A DNA stretch of 64,000 nucleotides from Rhodobacter xanthinilyticus. Lineage in GTDB: Bacteria; Pseudomonadota; Alphaproteobacteria; Rhodobacterales; Rhodobacteraceae. The position numbers and the translations under genes were made by a program. This document shows, piece by piece, positions 10,526-36,621 of the stretch (position 1 is the stretch's first letter; the number at the start of each line of letters is the position of its first letter). Location of the stretch: contig NZ_CP017781.1 in assembly GCF_001856665.1 (NCBI RefSeq), positions 992,001-1,056,000 on the forward strand. The letters run 5' to 3'. Below the pieces are notes generated by a model, which worked only from the letters and a program-made list of their open reading frames with translations, was not told the DNA's origin and ran no database searches.

Positions 10526-11668
<1,143 letters not shown>

Positions 11669-24785: not shown

Positions 24786-26552
24786 ATGAATCGTTTCGTC
24801 ATGGCCGCCGTCGTGGCCATCACCTGCCTCGGCACGGCCGCCAGCGCCGGCGTCACCGAGGAAGACCTGCTCAACGACCAGACCAGCGTCAGCGACGTTC
24901 TGACCAATGGCATGGGCCGCAACCTGCAACGCTACAGCCCGCTCGAGACGCTGAACAAGGACAACGTCAAGAACCTGGTGCCGGCCTGGGCCTTCTCGCT
25001 CGGCGGCGAGAAACAGCGCGGCCAGGAGAGCCAGCCGCTCGTCCATGACGGGATGATGTATATCACCGGCTCCTATTCGCGCGTCTATGCGATCGACCTC
25101 AAGACCGGCAAGGAAGCCTGGCAATATGACGCCCGCCTGCCCGAGGGGATCCTGCCCTGCTGTGACGTGATCAACCGCGGCGGCGCGATCTATGGCGACA
25201 ATTTCTACTTCGGCACGCTCGATGCGCGGATCATCGCGCTCGATCTGAAGACCGGCAAGGTCAAGTGGAACAAGAAGATCGCCGATTACAAGGAAGGCTA
25301 CAGCTATACCGCGGCGCCGCTGATCGTGAACGGGCTCGTGATCACCGGCAATTCGGGCGGCGAGTTCGGGATCGTCGGCGAGGTGCAGGCGCGCGACGCC
25401 GAGACCGGCGAGATGGTCTGGACGCGGCCGATGATCGAAGGCCATATGGGCACCTTCAAGGGCGAGCCCTCGACGATGACCGGCACGCTCAACGCCACCT
25501 GGCCGGGCGATCTGTGGAAGACCGGCGGCGGCGCGACCTGGCTCGGCGGCTCCTATGATGCCGATACCAACACGCTGATCTTCGGCGCAGGCAACCCGTC
25601 GCCCTGGAACAGCCACCTGCGAAACGCCGGCACGCCCGTCGAGGGCAACAAGGGCGACAACCTCTATGCCGCGAGCCGCGTCGGCATCGACCCGGCCACC
25701 GGCGAGATCAAATGGCACTTCCAGACCACCCCGCGCGAGGGCTGGGATTTCGACGGCGTGAACGAGGTCGTGGCCTTCACCGACAAGGACGGCAACAAGC
25801 GCTTCGCCACCGCCGACCGCAACGGCTTCTTCTATGTGCTCAACCGCGAGGACGGCAAATTCGTCGCCGCCCACCCCTTCGTGAAGAACATCACCTGGGC
25901 GAGCGGCATCGATGAAACCGGCCGGCCGATCTACAACGAAGACAACCGCCCCGGCGCCCCCGATGCCGCGGCCGAAGGCGGCAAGGGCCAGCAGGTCTTC
26001 GCGGTGCCCTCGTTCCTCGGCGGCAAGAACTGGATGCCGATGGCCCATAGCCAGAAGACCGGCCTCTTCTATGTGCCCTCGAACGAATGGGGCATGGATA
26101 TCTGGAACGAGCCGATCAGCTACAAGAAGGGCGCGGCCTATCTCGGCGCGGGCTTCACGATCAAACCGCTCTTCGAGGATTACATCGGCTCGCTGAAGGC
26201 GATCGACCCGGTGACCGGCGAGGTGAAATGGGAATACAAGAACGGCGCGCCGCTCTGGGGGGGCGTGATGACCACCGCCGGCGGGCTCGTCTTCACCGGC
26301 ACCCCCGAGGGCGAATTCATCGCCTTCGACGATGAAACCGGCGAGAAGCTGTGGTCGTTCCAGACCGGCTCGGGCATCGTCGGCCAGCCGATCACCTGGG
26401 AACAGGACGGCGAGCAATATGTCTCGATCATGTCGGGCTGGGGCGGCGCGGTTCCGCTCTGGGGCGGCGAGGTCGCCAAGAAGGTGAACTACCTCAACCA
26501 GGGCGGCATGGTCTGGACGTTCAAACTGCCCAAACAGCTCGCGGCGAACTGA
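24786..26552 (+). CDS. xoxF: PQQ-dependent alcohol dehydrogenase, XoxF type (lanthanide-binding signature)
   Basis: 588 residues. A signal peptide ends near SAGV, residue 23. An eight-bladed quinoprotein propeller carries the vicinal disulfide CCD (Cys125-Cys126), the metal ligands Glu193 (GGEFG) and Asn275 (PWNSH), the catalytic Asp321 and a second acidic residue Asp323 in WDFDG. The Asp-x-Asp pair is the mark of lanthanide-dependent enzymes; calcium-dependent MxaF has alanine at the second position. It oxidises methanol or other short alcohols in the periplasm. PQQ synthesis genes and mxaI are not in this window. The neighbouring ped-like genes also fit ethanol or wider alcohol use. Confidence 0.93.
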
Positions 26553-27679: not shown

Positions 27680-27766
27680 TAGACTTTAGCACAGTATGGC
27701 GCCGCAAAGGGGGTTGCTAGAGTGAGGGGAGCCCCGCACAATCGGCGAGACAGACAGGACGAGCCC

Positions 27767-28498
27767 ATGCAACAGACCGACCCCGCCCCGATCGCGCCGC
27801 CCGCCGGTCCGCTTGCTTGCGGCGAGCTGCGGCGCGCGCTCATCGTGGATGACCATCCGCTGTTTTGCGATGCGCTGGGCATGACCTTGCGTGCGGTGGC
27901 GGGGATCGAGGAACTCGAGCAGGCCGAATGCCTCGCCGATGCGCTGGCGCTGATCGAGGGCGGCGCGGCGCCCGATGTGATCGTGCTCGATCTCAACCTG
28001 CCCGATGTGAACGGGCTCGAGGGGTTGATGAGCCTGCGCAAGGCCGCGCCGGAGCGGCCGGTGATCGTGGTCTCCTCGCTCGACGAGCCGCGGGTGATCC
28101 GCGCCGCGCTGGCGGCGGGGGCGGCGGGCTTCGTGCCCAAACATTCGCGCCGCGAGCTCTTTCGCGCGGCCTTTGCCGCGATCGCGCGGGGCGAGGTCTT
28201 CGTGCCCGAAAGCGCGGGCGCCGCGCTCGAGGCCGCGGCCCCCGAGGGCGCGCAGGAGGAGGCGATCCGGCGGCTGAGCCAGCTCACCCGCCAGCAGGCC
28301 AACATCCTCGAGCAGATCTGCGCGGGCAAGATGAACAAGCAGATCGCTTTTGATCTGTCGATCGCCGAGACCACGGTGAAGGCCCATGTCACCGCGATCA
28401 TGCGCAAGCTCGGCGTCTACAGCCGCACCCAGGCGGTGTTGCTCGCGCGCGAGGCGCAATCGACGGGGGCATTGCCGGGGGACTGGGGCGCGCGCTAA
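27767..28498 (+). CDS. LuxR-type response regulator (NarL family; AgmR/ErbR-like)
   Basis: 243 residues. The N-terminal receiver domain has IVDDHPLF (acidic pocket), Asp75 in VLDLNLPD (phosphorylation site) and FVPKHS (conserved Lys). The C-terminal LuxR helix-turn-helix reads LTRQQANILEQICAGKMNKQIA and AETTVKAHVTAIMRKL. In Pseudomonas aeruginosa the similar AgmR/ErbR controls the PQQ ethanol oxidation genes. Here it lies beside a xoxF system and a hybrid kinase, so the same role is inferred. The start at 27767 (MQQTDP) is preferred; a longer frame from 27722 has no better ribosome site. Confidence 0.87.
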   Translation: MQQTDPAPIAPPAGPLACGELRRALIVDDHPLFCDALGMTLRAVAGIEELEQAECLADALALIEGGAAPDVIVLDLNLPDVNGLEGLMSLRKAAPERPVIVVSSLDEPRVIRAALAAGAAGFVPKHSRRELFRAAFAAIARGEVFVPESAGAALEAAAPEGAQEEAIRRLSQLTRQQANILEQICAGKMNKQIAFDLSIAETTVKAHVTAIMRKLGVYSRTQAVLLAREAQSTGALPGDWGAR

Positions 28499-28519
28499 GC
28501 TCCTGCCCGGGAGGACATC

Positions 28520-29707
28520 ATGGAGACGATCAGCGACCCTCACGCAGGGGCGGCGCGTGCGGCCAATTGCCCCGCGCAGGCCTGTCCGGTCACCGCTTCG
28601 GCGCGCGCTGCCGACCCGGGCGCCTTTGCCACGCTCGCGGCGGGGCTCGGGCCCGGGCCCTTCGCGCAGATCTCGATCTTTGCGAGCCCCGAGGCCGATC
28701 TCGAGGCGCTGTGCCGGGGCGCGGCGGCGCAATATCCGCGCGCGGTGGTGGTCGGCTGCACCACGGCGGGCGAGATCACCGAGGCGGGCTATGCCGAGGG
28801 CCAGATCCTCGCCTTCGCGCTGCCGCGGGCGGGGTTCGATGTCGAGATGATCGTCGTGCCCGAGCTCGACCGGCTCGACACGCGGCGGCTGATCGCGGAG
28901 GTGCTGCGCGCGCGTCAGGGGCTCGGGCTGCGCGCCGCCGATCTGGCGAGCGAATTCGCGGTGCTGCTGGTCGACGGGCTCTCGGGGCGCGAGGATGAAC
29001 TCGTCGGCGCGCTCTCAGGCGCGCTCGGCGCGGTGCCGCTGATCGGCGGCTCGGCGGGCGACGGGGGGCTGTTTCGCCGCTCGCTGATCTGGGCGGGGGG
29101 GCGGCTTTGGGAAAACGCCGCCGCGCTCAGCCTCGTGCGCGGGCGCTGCGAGGTGCGGCCCTTCTCGATCGACCACATGCGCCCGACCGAGGCGCGGATG
29201 GTGGTCACCGCCGCCGACCCCGCGCGCCGGGCCGTGGCGCGGATCAATGACGAGCCCGCCGCGGCCGAATATGCGCGCCTGCTCGGGCTGCCGGTCGAGG
29301 CGCTCTCGCCCTATGTCTTTGCCGCGCATCCGGTTTTGGCGCGGGCGGGCGGGCGCCACCATGTCCGCGCGATCCAGGGGGTGGATGCGAGCGGCGCGCT
29401 GATCTTCTTCGCCGCGATCGCCGAGGGGTTGGTGCTGACGCTGGCCGAACCGGGCGATATCGCGGCCCATCTCGACGCGGCGCTGGCCGATCTGGCCGCG
29501 GGCGGCGCGCCCTCGGCGATCCTCGGCTTCGACTGCATCTTCCGGCGCATCGAGGCCACCGGGCGCCAGCGCGCGCGGGCGGTCTCCGAGATCCTCGCGC
29601 GCCACCGGGTCACCGGCTTTTCCACCTATGGCGAGCAGATCGGGGCGATGCATGTCAACCAGACGCTGACCGGCTTTGCCTTTTACCCCACCGAGGCGCG
29701 CCGATGA
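28520..29707 (+). CDS. FIST-domain sensory protein
   Basis: 395 residues, no signal peptide. The FIST N domain covers about residues 45-235 (VVVGCTTAGEITEAGY, then AVLLVDGLSGREDELV and PLIGGSAGDGG). The FIST C domain follows to near the end (GRHHVRAIQGVDASGALIFFAAI, then ILGFDCIFRR). FIST proteins are thought to sense small ligands, possibly amino acids, and often sit beside signalling proteins. The gene overlaps the hybrid kinase start by four bases, so the two are coupled and probably work as sensor and kinase. GGGAGG precedes the ATG. Confidence 0.88.
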   Translation: METISDPHAGAARAANCPAQACPVTASARAADPGAFATLAAGLGPGPFAQISIFASPEADLEALCRGAAAQYPRAVVVGCTTAGEITEAGYAEGQILAFALPRAGFDVEMIVVPELDRLDTRRLIAEVLRARQGLGLRAADLASEFAVLLVDGLSGREDELVGALSGALGAVPLIGGSAGDGGLFRRSLIWAGGRLWENAAALSLVRGRCEVRPFSIDHMRPTEARMVVTAADPARRAVARINDEPAAAEYARLLGLPVEALSPYVFAAHPVLARAGGRHHVRAIQGVDASGALIFFAAIAEGLVLTLAEPGDIAAHLDAALADLAAGGAPSAILGFDCIFRRIEATGRQRARAVSEILARHRVTGFSTYGEQIGAMHVNQTLTGFAFYPTEARR

Positions 29708-31971
29708 CCGCCCCGGATTTTGCCACCATGGCGCGTTCGCTCGTCGACCCTGCCGACAGCCTCGCGCGGCAAAACGAGAAGCTGCGGGTGATCGCGGGGG
29801 CCCTGATGCGCCATGCCGAGGAGATCACCGAGGATCGCGGCGCGGGCTATGCGCAGTTCCAGCGCGCCGCCGTGCTCGAGGAGCAGGTCCGCGAGCGCAC
29901 CCGCGATCTCGAGCGCGCGCTCGATCTGCTCAACGCCTCGAACGCGCGTCTGGCCGAGGCCAACCGCGAGATCGAGGCCGCGCGCGCCAACCTCGCCGCC
30001 GCGCTCGAGACGATCCAGGAGGGGTTTGCGCTTTTTGACGCCAACGACATCTTGGTGATGTGCAACTCGCGCTACAACATCTTGTTGGCTGATATCCGCC
30101 CGCAGATGGTCCCGGGGCTGCATTTCTCGGATTATCTGCGCATCGTCGCGGGCTCGGCCTTCCTCGGCATGCCCGCCGGCATGAGCCCGCCCGACTGGAT
30201 CGAGATGCGCGCGCGCCGCCATGAGAGCCATCATTTCATCCTGACCCAGCAGATGGGCGACGACCGCTGGGTGCAGGTCTCCGAGCACCGCACCCAGGAG
30301 GGCGGCACGGTGATCTTGCAGACCGAGGTCACCGATCTGATCCGCGCCGAGCGGCGCGAGCGCGGGCGGATGCTCGACGATCAGGCCAGGATCCTGCGCG
30401 CCACGCTCGAACATCTGCCGCTTGGCGTGTGCATCTTCGATGCGCGGCTCCAGCTTCTGGGCTGGAACGAGCGGCTGGCCGATCTGCTCACGCTGCCGCG
30501 GCGGCGGCTGCGGGCGGGGATCCATTTCGACACGCTTCTCGAGCAGGTGCGCGATCAGTTCCTCTTCCCGAGCGGGCTGAGCGCCTATCGGCTCTCGGAT
30601 TGGGTGCGCCGCGCGCGCCGGCGCGATCATCTGCGCATGGAGCTCAGCCGCGAGGGCGGGCAGGTTTACGAGCTCTTCGCGCAGGAGCTGCCCGACGGCG
30701 GCTTCGTGATGTCGCTGGCCGATGTCACCGCCGAGCGCGGCGCGTTGCAGGCGCTCGCGCAGGCCAATGAGACGCTCGAGGCGCGGGTGATGGAGCGCAC
30801 GCTCGAGCTCGAGGATGCGCTCGGGCGCGCCGAGCGGGCGAATGCCTCGCGCTCGCGCTTTGTCGCGGCGGCGAGCCATGATCTGCTGCAGCCGCTCTCG
30901 GCCGCGCGGCTCTATCTCGCCTCGATGGGCGATGATGCGATCGCGCCCGCGGCGCGCGCCACGCTCGAGAAGGCGCAAAACGCGCTCGGCTCGGTCGAGG
31001 CGATCCTCGGCGCGCTGCTCGATATCTCGCGCCTCGAGGCGGGGCGGGCGGCGGTCGAGCCGGGGCCCTTGGCGCTCGGGCCGCTTCTGCGCGCGCTCGC
31101 CGATGAATTCGCGCCAAGCGCCGCGCTCAAGGGGATCGAGCTGGTGATCCGGCCGGTCGAAGCGGTGGTGATCTCCGACCGCGCCTATCTGCGCCGGATC
31201 TTGCAAAACCTGATCTCGAACGCGGTGCGCTACACGCTGCGCGGGCGCGTGGCGGTGCTTTGCCGGCGCCGGGGCGGGCAGCTTGTCGTTGAGGTGCGCG
31301 ACAGCGGCCCGGGCATCGCCGAGGCCGATCAGGAGATCATCTTCCGCGAGTTTCAGCGCCTCCATCAGGCCTCCTCGGCGGCGGTCGGCATGGGGCTCGG
31401 CCTTGCCATCGTCGAGCGCGCGGCGGCGCTATTGGGCCATCCGCTCGGGCTGCGCTCGGCGCCGGGGCGGGGCACCACCTTCACGCTCGGGCTGCGCCTT
31501 GCGCCCGCCGCCGCGCCCGGGCTCGACAAGGTCGCCCCCGATGCCGGCCCGCGCGACCCGGAGGCGGGCGAGATCGTCGTGCTTTTGGTCGAGAACGACC
31601 CGGGGCTGCGTCAGGCGATGGTGCAGCTGCTCGAGACCTGGGGGGCGAGCGTGCTCGATGTGGCCTCGGGCGAGGAGGCGCTCGAGCTGATCGAGGCGAC
31701 GGGGCTGGTGCCCGACCGGGCGCTTGTCGATTTTCAGCTCGGCGAGGGGCGGCTCGACGGGATCGAGACGCTCGGGCGGCTGGCGGCGATGGTCGGGCCC
31801 TTTGCCGCGCGGCTCGTCACCGCCGACCGCTCCGAGGCGCTGTTGCGGCGCGCGGCGGCGGCGGGGGTGACGGTCTTGCACAAGCCCTTGCCGCCCGGCG
31901 ATCTCTCCGAGTTCCTGTTCGGCGCGGAGCGGGACGGGTTCGGCGCGCAGCGCGAGGGGCGGCCGGGCTGA
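29704..31971 (+). CDS. PAS-domain hybrid histidine kinase/response regulator (NahK/ErcS family)
   Basis: 755 residues, cytoplasmic. A coiled-coil lead (about 55-100) is followed by two PAS-like domains (about 100-210 and 235-350) and a second coiled coil. The HisKA box is SRFVAAASHDLLQPLSAAR with His392, and the HATPase is marked by NLISNAVRYT and MGLGLAIVERAA. A C-terminal receiver has Asp676 in LVDFQLG. NahK/ErcS relatives control PQQ alcohol oxidation in pseudomonads. The unlinked phosphotransfer path to the LuxR regulator at 27767 is inferred. Confidence 0.88.
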   Translation: MTAPDFATMARSLVDPADSLARQNEKLRVIAGALMRHAEEITEDRGAGYAQFQRAAVLEEQVRERTRDLERALDLLNASNARLAEANREIEAARANLAAALETIQEGFALFDANDILVMCNSRYNILLADIRPQMVPGLHFSDYLRIVAGSAFLGMPAGMSPPDWIEMRARRHESHHFILTQQMGDDRWVQVSEHRTQEGGTVILQTEVTDLIRAERRERGRMLDDQARILRATLEHLPLGVCIFDARLQLLGWNERLADLLTLPRRRLRAGIHFDTLLEQVRDQFLFPSGLSAYRLSDWVRRARRRDHLRMELSREGGQVYELFAQELPDGGFVMSLADVTAERGALQALAQANETLEARVMERTLELEDALGRAERANASRSRFVAAASHDLLQPLSAARLYLASMGDDAIAPAARATLEKAQNALGSVEAILGALLDISRLEAGRAAVEPGPLALGPLLRALADEFAPSAALKGIELVIRPVEAVVISDRAYLRRILQNLISNAVRYTLRGRVAVLCRRRGGQLVVEVRDSGPGIAEADQEIIFREFQRLHQASSAAVGMGLGLAIVERAAALLGHPLGLRSAPGRGTTFTLGLRLAPAAAPGLDKVAPDAGPRDPEAGEIVVLLVENDPGLRQAMVQLLETWGASVLDVASGEEALELIEATGLVPDRALVDFQLGEGRLDGIETLGRLAAMVGPFAARLVTADRSEALLRRAAAAGVTVLHKPLPPGDLSEFLFGAERDGFGAQREGRPG

Positions 31972-32067
31972 CGCAACGGCAGGCGGATCACTTTTCGCAA
32001 ATTGTCACGGGTGTGACGCATCGCTTTGGCAAAGGGGGGCCAGCCAACAACCTTTGAGGACCCTCCC

Positions 32068-33813
32068 ATGAAGCTGCGCAGCCATCTGCTCTCCGCCACC
32101 GCGCTCATGCTCCTGCCGCTCGCCGCGCAAGCGGGCGAGCTCGCCTTCGCGCCGGTGCCCTTCGCCGCCGACGACGCCGCCAAGCGCGCCGTTCTCGCCT
32201 CGAGCGAAGTGACCATCGACGGCAAGACCTATCCGATCGGCTACACCGCCTTCGCCCGCTCGGGCGAGAAATTCGGCCAGACCGCCTTCGGGGCGCTGAC
32301 CGGGCGCGACGGCGCGGTGCTCAAGGCCGAAGACGGCAGCGAGATCATCTCCAACAGCGCCGATTTCACCTCGCTGCTGAAGGTCGGCGCGAAGCTCTTC
32401 TCGCTCACCCATTTCGAATCGCGCCCGGGCGCGATGTATCTGAGCGAGCTGGCGCAGGACGCCGAGGGCAAGCTCTCGGTCGTTTCCTCGAAGCCGGTCG
32501 ATTTCTCGGCGCTCAACGGCCTTTGGGTGCCCTGCGCGGGCTCGGTCACGCCGTGGGAAACCCATCTCGGCTCGGAGGAATACCCCGCCGATGCGCGCGC
32601 CATCGAAGAGGCGACCGCGCTCGACCAGCTCGATGATTACCCCTTCACGATGGTCCGCTACGAGGGCGTCGAGCCCGCGAAGATGGATCTCGAGGCGTTC
32701 CGCGCGGCCTACAAGCCCTATCGCTACGGCGCGCCCGTCGAGGTCACCGTGACCGAGGACGGCACCGCCACCCCGGTGCGCCACCATGCGATGGGCCGCG
32801 TCGCGGTCGAGCTCGCCAAGGTCATGCCCGACCAGAAAACCGCCTATATCTCGGATGACGGCACCAATGTGGGCCTGTTCATGTTCGTGGCCGACAAGGA
32901 AGGCGATCTCTCGGCCGGCCAGCTCTACGCCGCGAAATGGACCCAGACCTCGGATGAGGGCGCGGGCGCGGCCGATCTGAGCTGGATCGACCTCGGCCAT
33001 GCCGATGACGCCACCGTCACCAAGGCCGTCGAGGAGGGGATCAAGTTCTCCGACCTCTTCGAGACCGCCGAGATCGGCGAAGACGGCTCCTGCCCGGAGG
33101 GCTTTGCCTCCGCCAATGCCGAGGGTCAGGCCGAGTGCCTCAAGGTCAAGCCGGGCATGGAGATGCTCGCCTCGCGGCTCGAGACGCGCCGCTATGCCTC
33201 GATGCTCGGCGCCACGACCGAGTTCCGCAAGATGGAAGGCATCGCCTATGACGGCGATCACAACAAGGTCTATCTGGCGATGTCGGAAATCGCCAAGGGC
33301 ATGGAGGACGGCTCCAAGCAGGACAAGGGCGGGCGCAACGACATCCGCCTCGCCAAGAACGCGTGCGGCGCGGTCTACCAGCTTGATCTGGCGGAGAATT
33401 TCCAGGCGACCTCGGCCAAGGCGATCGTCGCGGGCAAGCCGCTGACCTACCCGGAAGGCTCGGAGTATGCCGGCAATGAATGCGATATCGACGGCATCGC
33501 GAACCCCGACAACCTGACCTATATCCCCGGCTACAACACGCTGATCATCGGCGAGGATACCGGCGAGGGCCACCAGAACGACGCGATCTGGTCGATGAAC
33601 CTCGAGACCGCCGCGCTGACGCGGGTGTTCTCGACGCCCTACGGCTCGGAAACCACCTCGCCCTACTGGTACCCGGATGTGAACGGCCATGGCTATCTGA
33701 TGGCGGTCGTGCAGCACCCCTACGGCGAATCCGATGAGGACAAGCTGCAAGATGCCGCCGATGCGCAGGCCTATGTCGGCTATATCGGCCCGTTCCCGGC
33801 GCTGGCGAAGTAA
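32068..33813 (+). CDS. PhoX-family (DUF839) protein, probable periplasmic phosphatase
   Basis: 581 residues. An N-terminal Sec-type signal peptide (residues 1-22, ending AQAGE) is followed by the DUF839 propeller. PCAGSVTPWETHLGSEEY resembles the calcium/iron-binding CAGGxTPWGTWLTCEE segment of PhoX. YISDDGTNVGLFMFV and NPDNLTYIPGYNTLIIGEDT are further family segments. PhoX normally uses a Tat signal; this one lacks twin arginines, so a PhoX-like function is likely but not certain. GAGGA precedes the ATG. It stands alone with its own terminator. Confidence 0.8.
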   Translation: MKLRSHLLSATALMLLPLAAQAGELAFAPVPFAADDAAKRAVLASSEVTIDGKTYPIGYTAFARSGEKFGQTAFGALTGRDGAVLKAEDGSEIISNSADFTSLLKVGAKLFSLTHFESRPGAMYLSELAQDAEGKLSVVSSKPVDFSALNGLWVPCAGSVTPWETHLGSEEYPADARAIEEATALDQLDDYPFTMVRYEGVEPAKMDLEAFRAAYKPYRYGAPVEVTVTEDGTATPVRHHAMGRVAVELAKVMPDQKTAYISDDGTNVGLFMFVADKEGDLSAGQLYAAKWTQTSDEGAGAADLSWIDLGHADDATVTKAVEEGIKFSDLFETAEIGEDGSCPEGFASANAEGQAECLKVKPGMEMLASRLETRRYASMLGATTEFRKMEGIAYDGDHNKVYLAMSEIAKGMEDGSKQDKGGRNDIRLAKNACGAVYQLDLAENFQATSAKAIVAGKPLTYPEGSEYAGNECDIDGIANPDNLTYIPGYNTLIIGEDTGEGHQNDAIWSMNLETAALTRVFSTPYGSETTSPYWYPDVNGHGYLMAVVQHPYGESDEDKLQDAADAQAYVGYIGPFPALAK

Positions 33814-33873: not shown

Positions 33874-35532
33874 ATGACCCGACTAGCCCTGCTTTTCGCC
33901 ACGCTGACCGCCGCTTCGGGCGCGCAGGCGCTCGATCTGGGGGCGACCACGCTCTCCAACCGCTCGGCGCATATCCCGCCGCAATGCTATACCAAGACGA
34001 CCGATGCCGCGGGCGCGGTGCACAACCCCTGCCAGACCTGCCACGTCCTGCCGCGCGCGCCCAATTACACCGCCGATGCCGATTTGCAGACGGTCTATGC
34101 CTTCCCGGCGCCGGCGCGGGTGAACCCCTGGACGAACCTCTTCGCCGACCGCCGCGCCGCGATCGCCACCACGCCGGCGCCCGAGATCGACGCCTGGGTC
34201 GCGCAGGACAATTACCGCAGCCCGTCGGGCAAGATCGCGCTGGCCGAGAAACTCGCCGCGCTGCCCGCCGATTGGGATAGCGACGGCGATGGCAAATGGG
34301 CGGGCTATGTGCCGGATATCTGGTTCGATTTCGACGAAGAAGGGTTCGACCGCGGCCCCGATGGCCGCGAGAGCGGCTGGCGCGCCTTCGCCTATCATCC
34401 GCTGCCGGGCAGCTTCTGGCCGATGAGCGGCTCGACCGATGACGTGATGATCCGCCTGCCCGAGGCCTATCGCCGGGCGGCGGACGGCACGCCCTCGCGC
34501 GCGATCTACAAGCTCAACCTCGCGATCACCGAGGCGCTGATCAAACGCGCGGATATCGCCATTGCGCCCACCGAGGAGGCGCCGCTCGGGCTCGATCTCG
34601 ACCGCGACGGGCGGCTTGGGCGGGCCGAGAAGGTGGCCTTCGACTGGGATCCGCTCGCCGGGCGCGAGATGCGCTGGGTGGGGCAGGCGGCCACGCTGCC
34701 CGCCGCCGAGGCGCCGATCGCGGCGGGGCTCTACCCGCTCGGCACCGAGTTTCTCCATTCGGTGCGCTATCTGAGCCCTGAGGCGCCCGGCCAGATGGCG
34801 CCGCGGATGAAGGAGCTGCGCTACATGCGCAAGACCCGCTGGCAGAGCTATTACGACCGCGAGGATGCCGCCCATGCCGATGCCAAGGAGCGGCGCGATT
34901 TCCCCGATCGGCTGGCGCAGTTCTTCGGCTCGGCCGAGGAGGGGATCTCGAACGGCACCGGCTGGCGGTTGCAGGGCTTCATCGAGGATGCGGCGGGCGA
35001 TCTGCGGCCGCAAAGTTTCGAGGAGACGGTGTTTTGCATGGGCTGCCATGGCGGGATCGGCGCGACCGATGACGATACCTTCGCCTTCCCGCGCAAGCTC
35101 GGGGCGGAGGCGTTCCGCGCGGGGTGGTATCATTGGAGCCAGAGGGGCTTTGACGGCGGCGCCGATCTGATCCGGGCCGATGGCACCTCGGAGGCCGCGC
35201 ATTACCTGCGCGCCAATGGCGGGGCCGATGATCTGGGCGCGACGCGGGCCGAGGTCGCGCAGTGGCTCGCCGATAACGCGCTCGCGCCGGCGGCGGCGCA
35301 GGCGGTCGGGGCCGGGGGCGCGGGGCTTGCGGCGCTGATCCTGCCCGATGCGGGCCGGGCGCGCGCGCTCGATGTCGCCTATCGCGAGGTGGTGCGCGAG
35401 CAGAGCTTCACCAAGGGCCGCGACGCGGTGCTCGCGCCGATGGAGGGGAGCGTGTGGCGCGTGCTCGAGGAGGATCAGCCGACGGGCGTCGCGGCGCCGG
35501 TCGCGGGGTGGTTTGCGCGCGCCGCGCGCTGA
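33874..35532 (+). CDS. Exported diheme c-type protein with EF-hand-like loop, unknown function
   Basis: 552 residues with a short signal peptide (to about residue 18). Two heme c sites are present: CQTCH at 53-57 and CMGCH at 388-392. Between them, DLDRDGRLGRAE at 241-252 fits a full EF-hand calcium loop (Asp at 1, 3 and 5, Gly at 6, Glu at 12). DWDSDGDGKWAG at 133-144 is a partial one. I do not recognise the family by name. The role could be electron transfer or peroxidase-like; it follows the PhoX-like gene after its terminator, so it may be a separate unit. Confidence 0.75.
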   Translation: MTRLALLFATLTAASGAQALDLGATTLSNRSAHIPPQCYTKTTDAAGAVHNPCQTCHVLPRAPNYTADADLQTVYAFPAPARVNPWTNLFADRRAAIATTPAPEIDAWVAQDNYRSPSGKIALAEKLAALPADWDSDGDGKWAGYVPDIWFDFDEEGFDRGPDGRESGWRAFAYHPLPGSFWPMSGSTDDVMIRLPEAYRRAADGTPSRAIYKLNLAITEALIKRADIAIAPTEEAPLGLDLDRDGRLGRAEKVAFDWDPLAGREMRWVGQAATLPAAEAPIAAGLYPLGTEFLHSVRYLSPEAPGQMAPRMKELRYMRKTRWQSYYDREDAAHADAKERRDFPDRLAQFFGSAEEGISNGTGWRLQGFIEDAAGDLRPQSFEETVFCMGCHGGIGATDDDTFAFPRKLGAEAFRAGWYHWSQRGFDGGADLIRADGTSEAAHYLRANGGADDLGATRAEVAQWLADNALAPAAAQAVGAGGAGLAALILPDAGRARALDVAYREVVREQSFTKGRDAVLAPMEGSVWRVLEEDQPTGVAAPVAGWFARAAR

Positions 35533-35700: not shown

Positions 35701-36621
35701 ATGTTGAAACAGATCCTTTCCGGGGCGCTGGCCCTGATGTGCCTTTGCGCGCCCGCGGTGGCGGAGCCTTTCGGGCAGGGATATCAAACACTTGGCTATG
35801 GCCGGCTGTTCAACAACGACCATCTGGGCGACGGCGATGACCGCTGGCAGACGGGCTCTTACACCATCTCGGTGGTGCGCGGCACCGGCTGGGAGGGGGC
35901 GATGCCCGCCGCGCCGCTCGAGGTGATCGAATATCGCATCGGCTCCTCGATCATCGCGCCCTCGGATCTGCGCAGCCCGCCGCCGGGCGACCGGCGCTAT
36001 GCCGGGCGGCTGCACCTTGGCGCGAATACCTACTTTGATTTCAAAGGCTTGGAGACGCGTCTCGGCGCCGGGCTCGTCGCGGTGGGCCCCGATACCGGGG
36101 TCTCGGGCCTTCATGAGGATCTGCACCGGATCTTCAGCTCGCCCCGCCCCGTGGTCGCGGCCAATCAGCTCCCCAACCATCTCTACCCGGTGCTCTCGGG
36201 CGAGATCGGGCGCCCGCTCGCGCTCGGCCGGGCCGAGCTGCGCCCCTTCGCCGAGGCGCGGCTGGGCGATGAGGATCTGCTGCGCGCGGGCGTCGATCTG
36301 AGCTTTGGCGCGCGCGAGATCGGCGCGCTGTGGCTGCGCGACGAGACCACCGGCCAGCGCTATGTCGGCATCTCCGGCGAGAGCGATCCGCGCCCGGCCT
36401 TCACGCTCGGCGCCGATGTCGCGCGGGTGTTCGACAGCGGCTATTTCCCCGCCGCCGATGGGGTCGAGGCCGAGAAAACCCGCGCGCGGCTGCGCGCCGG
36501 CGTCGATGCGCGGCTCGGCATGATGGGGGTGTTCTACGGCGTCACCTGGCTCTCGGAGGAGTTCGAGGGCCAGCCCGAGGGGCAGGTTCTGGGCTCGCTG
36601 CGGCTGCGCGTGAACTTCTGA
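35701..36621 (+). CDS. LpxR-family outer-membrane protein (DUF2219), probable lipid A-modifying
   Basis: 306 residues with a signal peptide (to about residue 22, AVAEP). The LpxR-type start is seen in FNNDHLGDGDDRWQTGSYT, with Asn-Asp and a following Thr. EDLHRIF in the middle carries a histidine in the position typical of the lipid A 3'-O-deacylase family. The remainder is alternating beta strands ending in an aromatic (VNF), typical of a beta-barrel. Catalytic activity cannot be confirmed; many Rhodobacterales members are only LpxR-like. Confidence 0.8.
   Translation: MLKQILSGALALMCLCAPAVAEPFGQGYQTLGYGRLFNNDHLGDGDDRWQTGSYTISVVRGTGWEGAMPAAPLEVIEYRIGSSIIAPSDLRSPPPGDRRYAGRLHLGANTYFDFKGLETRLGAGLVAVGPDTGVSGLHEDLHRIFSSPRPVVAANQLPNHLYPVLSGEIGRPLALGRAELRPFAEARLGDEDLLRAGVDLSFGAREIGALWLRDETTGQRYVGISGESDPRPAFTLGADVARVFDSGYFPAADGVEAEKTRARLRAGVDARLGMMGVFYGVTWLSEEFEGQPEGQVLGSLRLRVNF

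Follow-up and report, generated by a model that had tools for sequence, protein, structure and literature searches.

A conserved diheme protein with a predicted P460-like domain, encoded next to a PhoX-like protein that lacks a twin-arginine signal

In Rhodobacter xanthinilyticus, a PhoX-like gene and a gene for an exported protein with two CxxCH motifs form a two-gene unit, in which the diheme gene is second. The unit lies in a 64,000-nucleotide stretch of DNA (the window), whose numbering is used throughout. The diheme proteins are a conserved family with sparse but clear relatives, and modelling predicts that they represent a two-heme branch of the P460/c′-β fold. It is tentatively proposed, at somewhat less than even odds, that the diheme protein is a redox activator of a PhoX phosphatase that is exported without a Tat signal. 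The open-access literature that was searched yielded neither a description of the PhoX–diheme pair nor experimental work on the diheme family.

The diheme gene and its PhoX-like partner

The diheme gene (33874..35532, + strand) starts with ATG, encodes 552 amino acids and has its first codon 60 nt past the stop codon of the PhoX-like gene. Residues 1–19 (33874..33930, + strand) form a probable signal peptide, judged by eye from a hydrophobic start and a terminal AQA; a lipobox was recognised by eye in the relatives L003–L005 and L022. The first-pass annotation described an unclassified, exported protein with two CxxCH sites 335 residues apart, and this description stands. The sites, which presumably both carry heme, are CQTCH at residues 53–57 (34030..34044, + strand) and CMGCH at residues 388–392 (35035..35049, + strand), the latter within the P460-like domain described below. 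Searches with the single sequence returned nothing from Pfam or NCBIfam at E ≤ 10 and only two chance rows from the PDB sequences (E 1.5 and 2.2), and the family profile A1 had no match among PDB sequences at E ≤ 10.

Among genomes sampled at three taxonomic levels, diheme relatives turned up in 5 of 299 for the phylum, 10 of 292 for the order and 9 of 295 for the family, counting the genome itself each time. A search of genome contigs gave 23 diheme loci, mostly from Rhodobacteraceae but also from Thiotrichales, Neptunomonas, Rhodobium and others. The gene is also present in three Pseudoalteromonas plasmid records, the sole annotated copy being named 'hypothetical protein'. Viral contigs were rejected as a source, with 14 pattern matches and no relatives among them.

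The working alignment of 33 rows comprises the 27 rows of A1 and six more divergent sequences, excluding the broken L028 and the cut L050. Residues invariant in all 33 rows include Cys38 (33985..33987, + strand), which lies outside any CxxCH, Cys53, Cys56 and His57 of the first motif, Cys388, Cys391 and His392 of the second, and His295, Lys313, Glu314, Arg316 and Lys320. As His295 is the sole invariant histidine outside the heme motifs and no methionine is invariant, a conserved histidine could be the second ligand of at most one heme. A divergent subfamily (L049, L050 and L051; 648–659 amino acids where complete) has a longer insert past the second CxxCH and lacks the EF-type loop at 241–252, with the PhoX pairing still present in L049 and L051. 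In the Rubrimonas locus L028 (2518–4472), both genes look broken: PhoX is reduced to 137 amino acids and the diheme gene is split over two frames.

In 32 of the 34 distinct diheme loci (L006–L028 and L041–L051, after removal of L052 and L053, which duplicate L008 and L012), the diheme gene is immediately preceded by a PhoX-like gene in the same orientation. The two genes are 505 nt apart in L019 and less than 200 nt apart in the other paired loci. The two exceptions are L050, truncated at the end of its contig, and L041 from genome G114, where PhoX is on a different contig; among the paired loci, L011 has a PhoX gene that runs off the contig and L028 a partial one. All five diheme genomes of the phylum draw hold a partner-type PhoX-like gene, including G114. 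The pair occurs in both Alpha- and Gammaproteobacteria, and pairwise distances of the diheme and PhoX proteins are strongly correlated (Mantel r 0.935 over 30 loci, against 0.50 for the best of 5000 shuffles).

No other neighbour recurs across lineages beside the diheme loci. Two sets of window genes, the FIST/kinase group and the PQQ gene, were considered as parts of the system and ruled out, being unconserved beside relatives. The former group, at 27722–31971 (+ strand) just before the PhoX pair, encodes a response regulator (PF00072, GerE), a FIST protein and a PAS/HisKA/receiver hybrid kinase, and we take it to resemble a NosP–NahK nitric-oxide sensing set. Adjoining the diheme gene on its 3′ side is a gene for an LpxR-type outer membrane protein (35701–36621, + strand; PF09982), which is likewise not among the recurring neighbours.

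The partner gene (32068..33813, + strand) encodes 581 amino acids with a Sec-type signal peptide, as judged by eye. Its product, already called PhoX-like in the first-pass annotation, matches PF05787 with E 3.1e-23 and 83.2 bits against a cut-off of 24, and is the sole PF05787 match in the genome. The partner profile A2 matches the PhoX entries 3zwu and 4amf with E about 4e-18, and hhalign aligns it with canonical PhoX over most of its length (99.9%, E 1.5e-33). By these sequence comparisons, the partner is a true PhoX relative. The places of Cys179, Glu273, Asp292 and Glu387, which we take to be the PhoX metal ligands, are kept in 30/30 partners. The Fe3+ of PhoX has a thiolate ligand, according to the available extract of PMC4223295.

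The partners differ from canonical PhoX in several respects beyond the diheme neighbour gene. An RR pair occurs within the first 60 residues of none of 30 partners, as against 27 of 30 canonical PhoX proteins. The place of Arg385, a residue that we assume to have a role in PhoX, is lysine in all 30 partners, giving K-x-E-G where all 30 canonical proteins have D-R-P-E. A further cysteine pair is found in 28 of 30 partners, both positions being alanine in L049 and L051. A loose pattern finds a lipobox in five partners, and a sixth, in L042, was seen by eye.

In a tree of 55 proteins, canonical PhoX is far removed (branch 2.49, support 100/100). Around the genes of a group of 12 PhoX-like proteins, here called the 'like' group, the flanking DNA that was read contains nothing recognisable as a relative of the diheme gene. 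On the tree, these partnerless proteins fall within the partnered set, next to L049 and L051, so that partnered PhoX is not one separate group (two changes on the tree). RR is present in seven of the 12 and absent from five; K-x-E-G, by string search, is present in 11. The five, together with a Thiodictyon protein, make six PhoX-like proteins that lack RR and also have no diheme gene recognised nearby, so that absence of a Tat signal does not require the partner. At the level of sequence, a partner thus implies no Tat signal in 30/30 cases, whereas the converse is untrue.

The 'like' group was also considered as a source of further cases of heme-protein association. A DHOR or CCP_MauG gene lies within about 5 kb in 2/12, one of them convergent, which amounts to no more than a hint; no heme family was matched by ten additional ORFs next to four of the remaining 'like' PhoX genes. 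In L134 (3987–10314, + strand), imelysin, DHOR and second imelysin genes (PF09375, PF06537) come after the PhoX-like gene in the same orientation. In L135 (2063–7353), a CCP_MauG gene adjoins a phosphoesterase gene (PF04185) and is convergent with the PhoX-like gene.

The two-gene unit is probably under PhoB control. A Pho-box-like element, TGTCACGGGTGTGACGC, lies at 32003..32019 (+ strand), about 65 bp 5′ of the PhoX-like start codon, with one mismatch to TGTCACN5TGTCRC. Measured against the consensus CTGTCATN4CTGTCAT, as given in the available part of PMC3131613, the best site in the window has six mismatches (shuffle p 0.52). Across 31 loci, the 150 bp 5′ of the PhoX-like gene averaged 4.94 mismatches to this consensus against 6.21 when shuffled, with 11/31 loci at p ≤ 0.05; this comparison used a shorter region, one strand and corrected starts. 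A looser search for the same consensus (both strands, 300–400 bp) did not separate 14 partner regions from 30 canonical PhoX regions (4.36 vs 4.37 mismatches). For TGTCACN5TGTCRC, the 31 regions averaged 2.61 mismatches against 4.53, and 16/31 loci came within two, a partly circular result in that the pattern was derived from the same regions; before the diheme gene, 0/21 regions came within two. Independent backing for the element comes from the published consensus and from the pst region. Over 12 kb around the genome's own pst–phoU genes (PhoU identified by search, pstS by eye), one site alone comes within four mismatches of the consensus; it is found 104 bp 5′ of the pstS-like ORF and is an exact fit to TGTCACN5TGTCRC.

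Predicted fold and heme pocket of the second heme domain

Residues 135–413 (34276..35112, + strand) are predicted to form a P460/c′-β-like domain with insertions. An AlphaFold2 model built with 27 relatives as input had a mean pLDDT of 85.9, and all 12 rows returned for it by VIA-align 2 were cytochrome P460 or c′-β (Z 5.5–3.8). For a model of the domain (residues 118–420, 33 rows as input, pLDDT 82.1), ranks 1–16 were all P460/c′-β with Z 6.8–4.3, followed by an unrelated chain at Z 2.9. These 16 rows aligned 110–133 residues of chains 135–160 residues long, the best (Z 6.8) having an rmsd of 3.6 over 131 residues. Both models show the β-sheet fold with CxxCH near the C-terminal end that typifies the superfamily, at Z values (≤6.8) in the range below 8 where VIA-align cautions that a match may reflect a merely common arrangement. 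Foldseek gave no match at E ≤ 0.001 for either model.

Profile comparisons point in the same direction over a narrower span. Of 27 members, 25 give sub-cut-off matches to PF16694, the best with E 1.4e-4; the window protein is one of the two that have no match at E ≤ 10. When five relatives were scanned singly, four matched with at most 18.2 bits, below the curated cut-off of 27 bits; a Pseudoalteromonas relative covers positions 22–117 of the 125-position profile with E 0.016. Comparison of A1 with 17 PF16694 proteins by hhalign gave a probability of 47.7, with the alignment limited to 37 columns at the second CxxCH, and comparison of the domain with P460 gave 60.4 (E 8e-5). A P460 profile scored a family median of 11.7 bits and 10.8 for the window protein, as against control medians of 4.4 for N-terminal parts, −0.8 for the CxxCH-masked domain and −1.9 for reversed sequences. 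Twenty-two other CxxCH ORFs near the cytochrome c genes of this genome scored up to 9.5 bits, little below the window protein. The sequence signal thus lies in the segment around the second CxxCH, and the P460 assignment rests on the fold comparison.

Features shared with the P460/c′-β superfamily (PF16694) are thus the predicted fold, the CxxCH near the domain end, a P-x-G-T turn and a GW...C-x-x-C-H...D..F segment. The diheme family differs in its additional CxxCH at the N-terminus, its insertions, its C-terminal helices and its scores below the Pfam cut-off. Fold testing was centred on the P460-like domain. Profile searching and structure prediction, which the first-pass annotation had proposed for placing the protein, provide it with a predicted fold but with no curated family or significant Foldseek match. 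It is improbable that the likeness is one of shared sheet arrangement only and that the protein has a separate two-heme fold. The Foldseek result, the best Z of 6.8, the missing PF16694 match of the window protein and the dependence of the profile signal on the CxxCH segment would suit such a fold, but all 16 rows above Z 4 belong to one superfamily and cover most of their chains, and both the 25/27 sub-threshold matches and the extended Pseudoalteromonas alignment likewise count against that reading.

Pocket positions of P460 were taken from Table 2 in the available part of PMC11928373. In P460 sequences from the PDB, the cross-linking lysine lies four residues past the G-T of the turn (Lys106; leucine in the K106L entry 6w6n). 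The residue aligned to it in the diheme family is His295 (34756..34758, + strand), in 33/33 rows and by a register that comes from one weak profile alignment (the hhalign probability of 60.4) and the shared P-x-G-T turn. By the same weak register, the distal Glu/Asp position of the P460 hydroxylamine oxidases is taken by Arg316 in 33/33 rows, on a strand that also bears the invariant Lys313, Glu314 and Lys320 (34810..34833, + strand). This register is somewhat favoured, and held to that level because the HMMER alignments stop short of this region. Lys313 and Lys320 were a first guess for the cross-linking residue and were ruled out by the turn and the hhalign alignment, both of which favour His295. 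Cytochromes c′-β have no such lysine and a mostly hydrophobic pocket; at the aligned places the diheme family has no lysine, but histidine and arginine.

A distal histidine and arginine are found in peroxidases, and by our own comparison the aligned pocket of the diheme protein resembles them. One member of the P460/c′-β superfamily has peroxidase-like activity, according to the available part of PMC11928373. The description 'peroxidase-like' in the first-pass annotation is therefore possible, given this superfamily member and the invariant His and Arg.

Candidate roles of the diheme protein

Canonical PhoX is exported in folded form via Tat, presumably carrying its Fe3+/Ca2+ cofactor. Lacking a twin-arginine signal, the partner would acquire its iron only once exported, and the iron would be oxidised to, or maintained in, the ferric state at that stage. 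It is tentatively proposed that the diheme protein is responsible for this step or activates the partner by a related oxidative reaction. The second c-heme would sit in the P460/c′-β-type domain, in a polar pocket where His295, Arg316 and perhaps Glu314 replace the lysine and carboxylate of P460. Either an oxidant (O2 or peroxide) or the iron of the partner may react with this heme, and heme 1 may relay electrons. We infer each of these steps, from export ahead of cofactor loading to the activating role, the oxidant and the electron path. Insertion of the PhoX and PhoD iron in the cytoplasm, ahead of Tat export, has been put forward as speculation in the work on the PhoD structure (PMC4223295).

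The activating role is consistent with the predicted fold, the 32/34 pairing, the Mantel correlation, the Pho-like element, the non-Tat signal and the kept metal ligands. Against it stand the Foldseek result, the Z values below 8 and the loss of the P460 profile signal on masking CxxCH, as well as the six partnerless PhoX-like proteins without RR and the failure of partnered PhoX to form a separate group on the tree. The poor fit of the window element to the published consensus, the negative first Pho-box test and the location of the G114 PhoX on another contig also count against it.

Further support comes from parallels elsewhere. In Flavobacterium, according to the available part of PMC8812569, phoX encodes a lipoprotein that is a distant PhoX relative, lies in an operon with the MauG-like gene fjoh_2477 and is up-regulated together with it in Pi depletion. 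In the same source, the Flavobacterium protein was inactive upon expression in P. putida, for which its authors suggest a required cofactor or poor folding or localisation, and deletion of phoX in its own host lowered the inducible activity. Like the present pair, the Flavobacterium operon of that source joins a PhoX-like protein, there a lipoprotein, to a c-type diheme neighbour, and Pi depletion raises the expression of both in Flavobacterium. The neighbour there is MauG-like, whereas here 0/27 members match PF03150 and a P460-like fold is predicted, so that an unrelated protein occupies the same genomic place. MauG itself, in the role given to it in the available part of PMC8812569, shares two c-hemes and the proposed oxidative activation of a partner protein; PF03150 (MauG/CCP) is not among the eight families matched by any of the 27 members at E ≤ 10.

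A Hymenobacter plasmid carries PhoX, leucine-rich-repeat (LRR) and CCP_MauG genes in one orientation, with a Na/Pi symporter gene close by. This PhoX has no RR at its annotated start, which may be incomplete. The LRR gene (L166, 6563–7279, + strand) lies between the other two, and the PhoX has a C-terminal sorting domain (PF18962).

A second reading, unlikely at about one chance in five, need not tie the diheme protein to PhoX chemistry: it would be an independent P460/c′-β-like enzyme or gas binder (for NO, hydroxylamine or peroxide) that is merely co-transcribed with PhoX. The predicted fold would suit this, as the superfamily is known for NO binding, hydroxylamine oxidation and one peroxidase-like member, according to the available part of PMC11928373. 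However, the pair is retained in 32/34 loci of Alpha- and Gammaproteobacteria and co-evolves, and the lysine and carboxylate required for hydroxylamine oxidation are absent at the aligned positions.

It is improbable that the two proteins are subunits of a periplasmic, PhoB-controlled oxidoreductase, in which the PhoX-like protein binds phosphite or a phosphonate at its Fe/Ca site and the diheme subunit accepts the electrons. PhoB control would fit such an enzyme, as phosphate would be its product, and strict pairing, co-evolution, the Pho-like element and the altered residue at the Arg385 place are all compatible with it. The low heme potentials of the superfamily (−428 to −205 mV; Table 3 in the available part of PMC11928373) would suit a strong donor. 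Opposed to this are the kept metal-ligand positions and the presence of K-x-E-G in 11/12 PhoX-like proteins with no diheme neighbour. The view that the P460 and MauG folds may be two structurally unrelated answers to the need of non-Tat PhoX for a diheme activator is closer to the evidence than a reduced-phosphorus oxidase.

If the diheme protein does activate its partner, one branch of PhoX phosphatases would depend on heme redox chemistry, and phosphorus scavenging would be tied to iron and heme supply. Two unrelated diheme proteins would have been recruited for PhoX, MauG-like in Flavobacterium and P460-like here. The inactivity of Flavobacterium PhoX in a foreign host, a result lacking an explanation so far, would become a matter for a simple co-expression test. 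The P460 superfamily would gain a two-heme branch with histidine at the place of the heme-linked lysine.

DxDxDG loops and the PQQ dehydrogenase gene

The first-pass annotation identified an EF-hand-type loop at residues 241–252 (34594..34629, + strand), DLDRDGRLGRAE, and a partial loop at 133–144, DWDSDGDGKWAG, both of which are present. The pattern D-x-[DN]-x-[DN]-G also fits the latter segment starting at residue 135; the first loop spans residues 133–146 (34270..34311, + strand). The pattern is kept at 241–246 in 30/33 rows and at 135–140 in 23/33. In 20,000 shuffles of the window protein, DxDxDG arose in 2.6% and a fuller EF-type pattern in 0.2%; this rarity makes a chance origin of the loop unlikely, and its conservation concurs. 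The Asp/Asn at positions 1, 3 and 5 and the Gly at 6 expected of an EF-hand are found in 30/33 rows. Position 12 (Glu252 in the window protein) is Glu in only 4/33 rows and Asp in 2/33, and the model has a strand (E250-254), not the second helix of a flanking pair, after the loop. The divergent L049 and L051 lose the segment 241–252 yet keep both CxxCH sites and the PhoX partner. It is plausible from the alignment that most members have a calcium site, one that would be nonessential to the diheme family.

A calcium or lanthanide response, suggested in the first-pass annotation, is as a central idea not supported, given these counts at position 12 and in the first loop and the loss of 241–252 in L049 and L051. 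Of the co-occurrence with PhoX or XoxF that was raised with it, the PhoX-like gene is strictly linked (32/34 loci). The window has a PQQ dehydrogenase gene (24786–26552, + strand; PF01011), which we take to be XoxF-like; it lies about 5.5 kb 5′ of the PhoX-like gene and is not among the window ORFs that recur near diheme relatives (flanks of up to 8 kb). A calcium- or lanthanide-responsive cytochrome tied to XoxF metabolism is thus very improbable: the loop pattern in 30/33 rows and the nearby PQQ gene speak for it, but the rarity of Glu at position 12, the retention of the partner where the loop segment is gone and the absence of the PQQ gene from the flanks read (≤8 kb) near relatives speak against it. 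The window that holds the PQQ dehydrogenase gene also contains a zinc alcohol dehydrogenase gene at 10559–11668.
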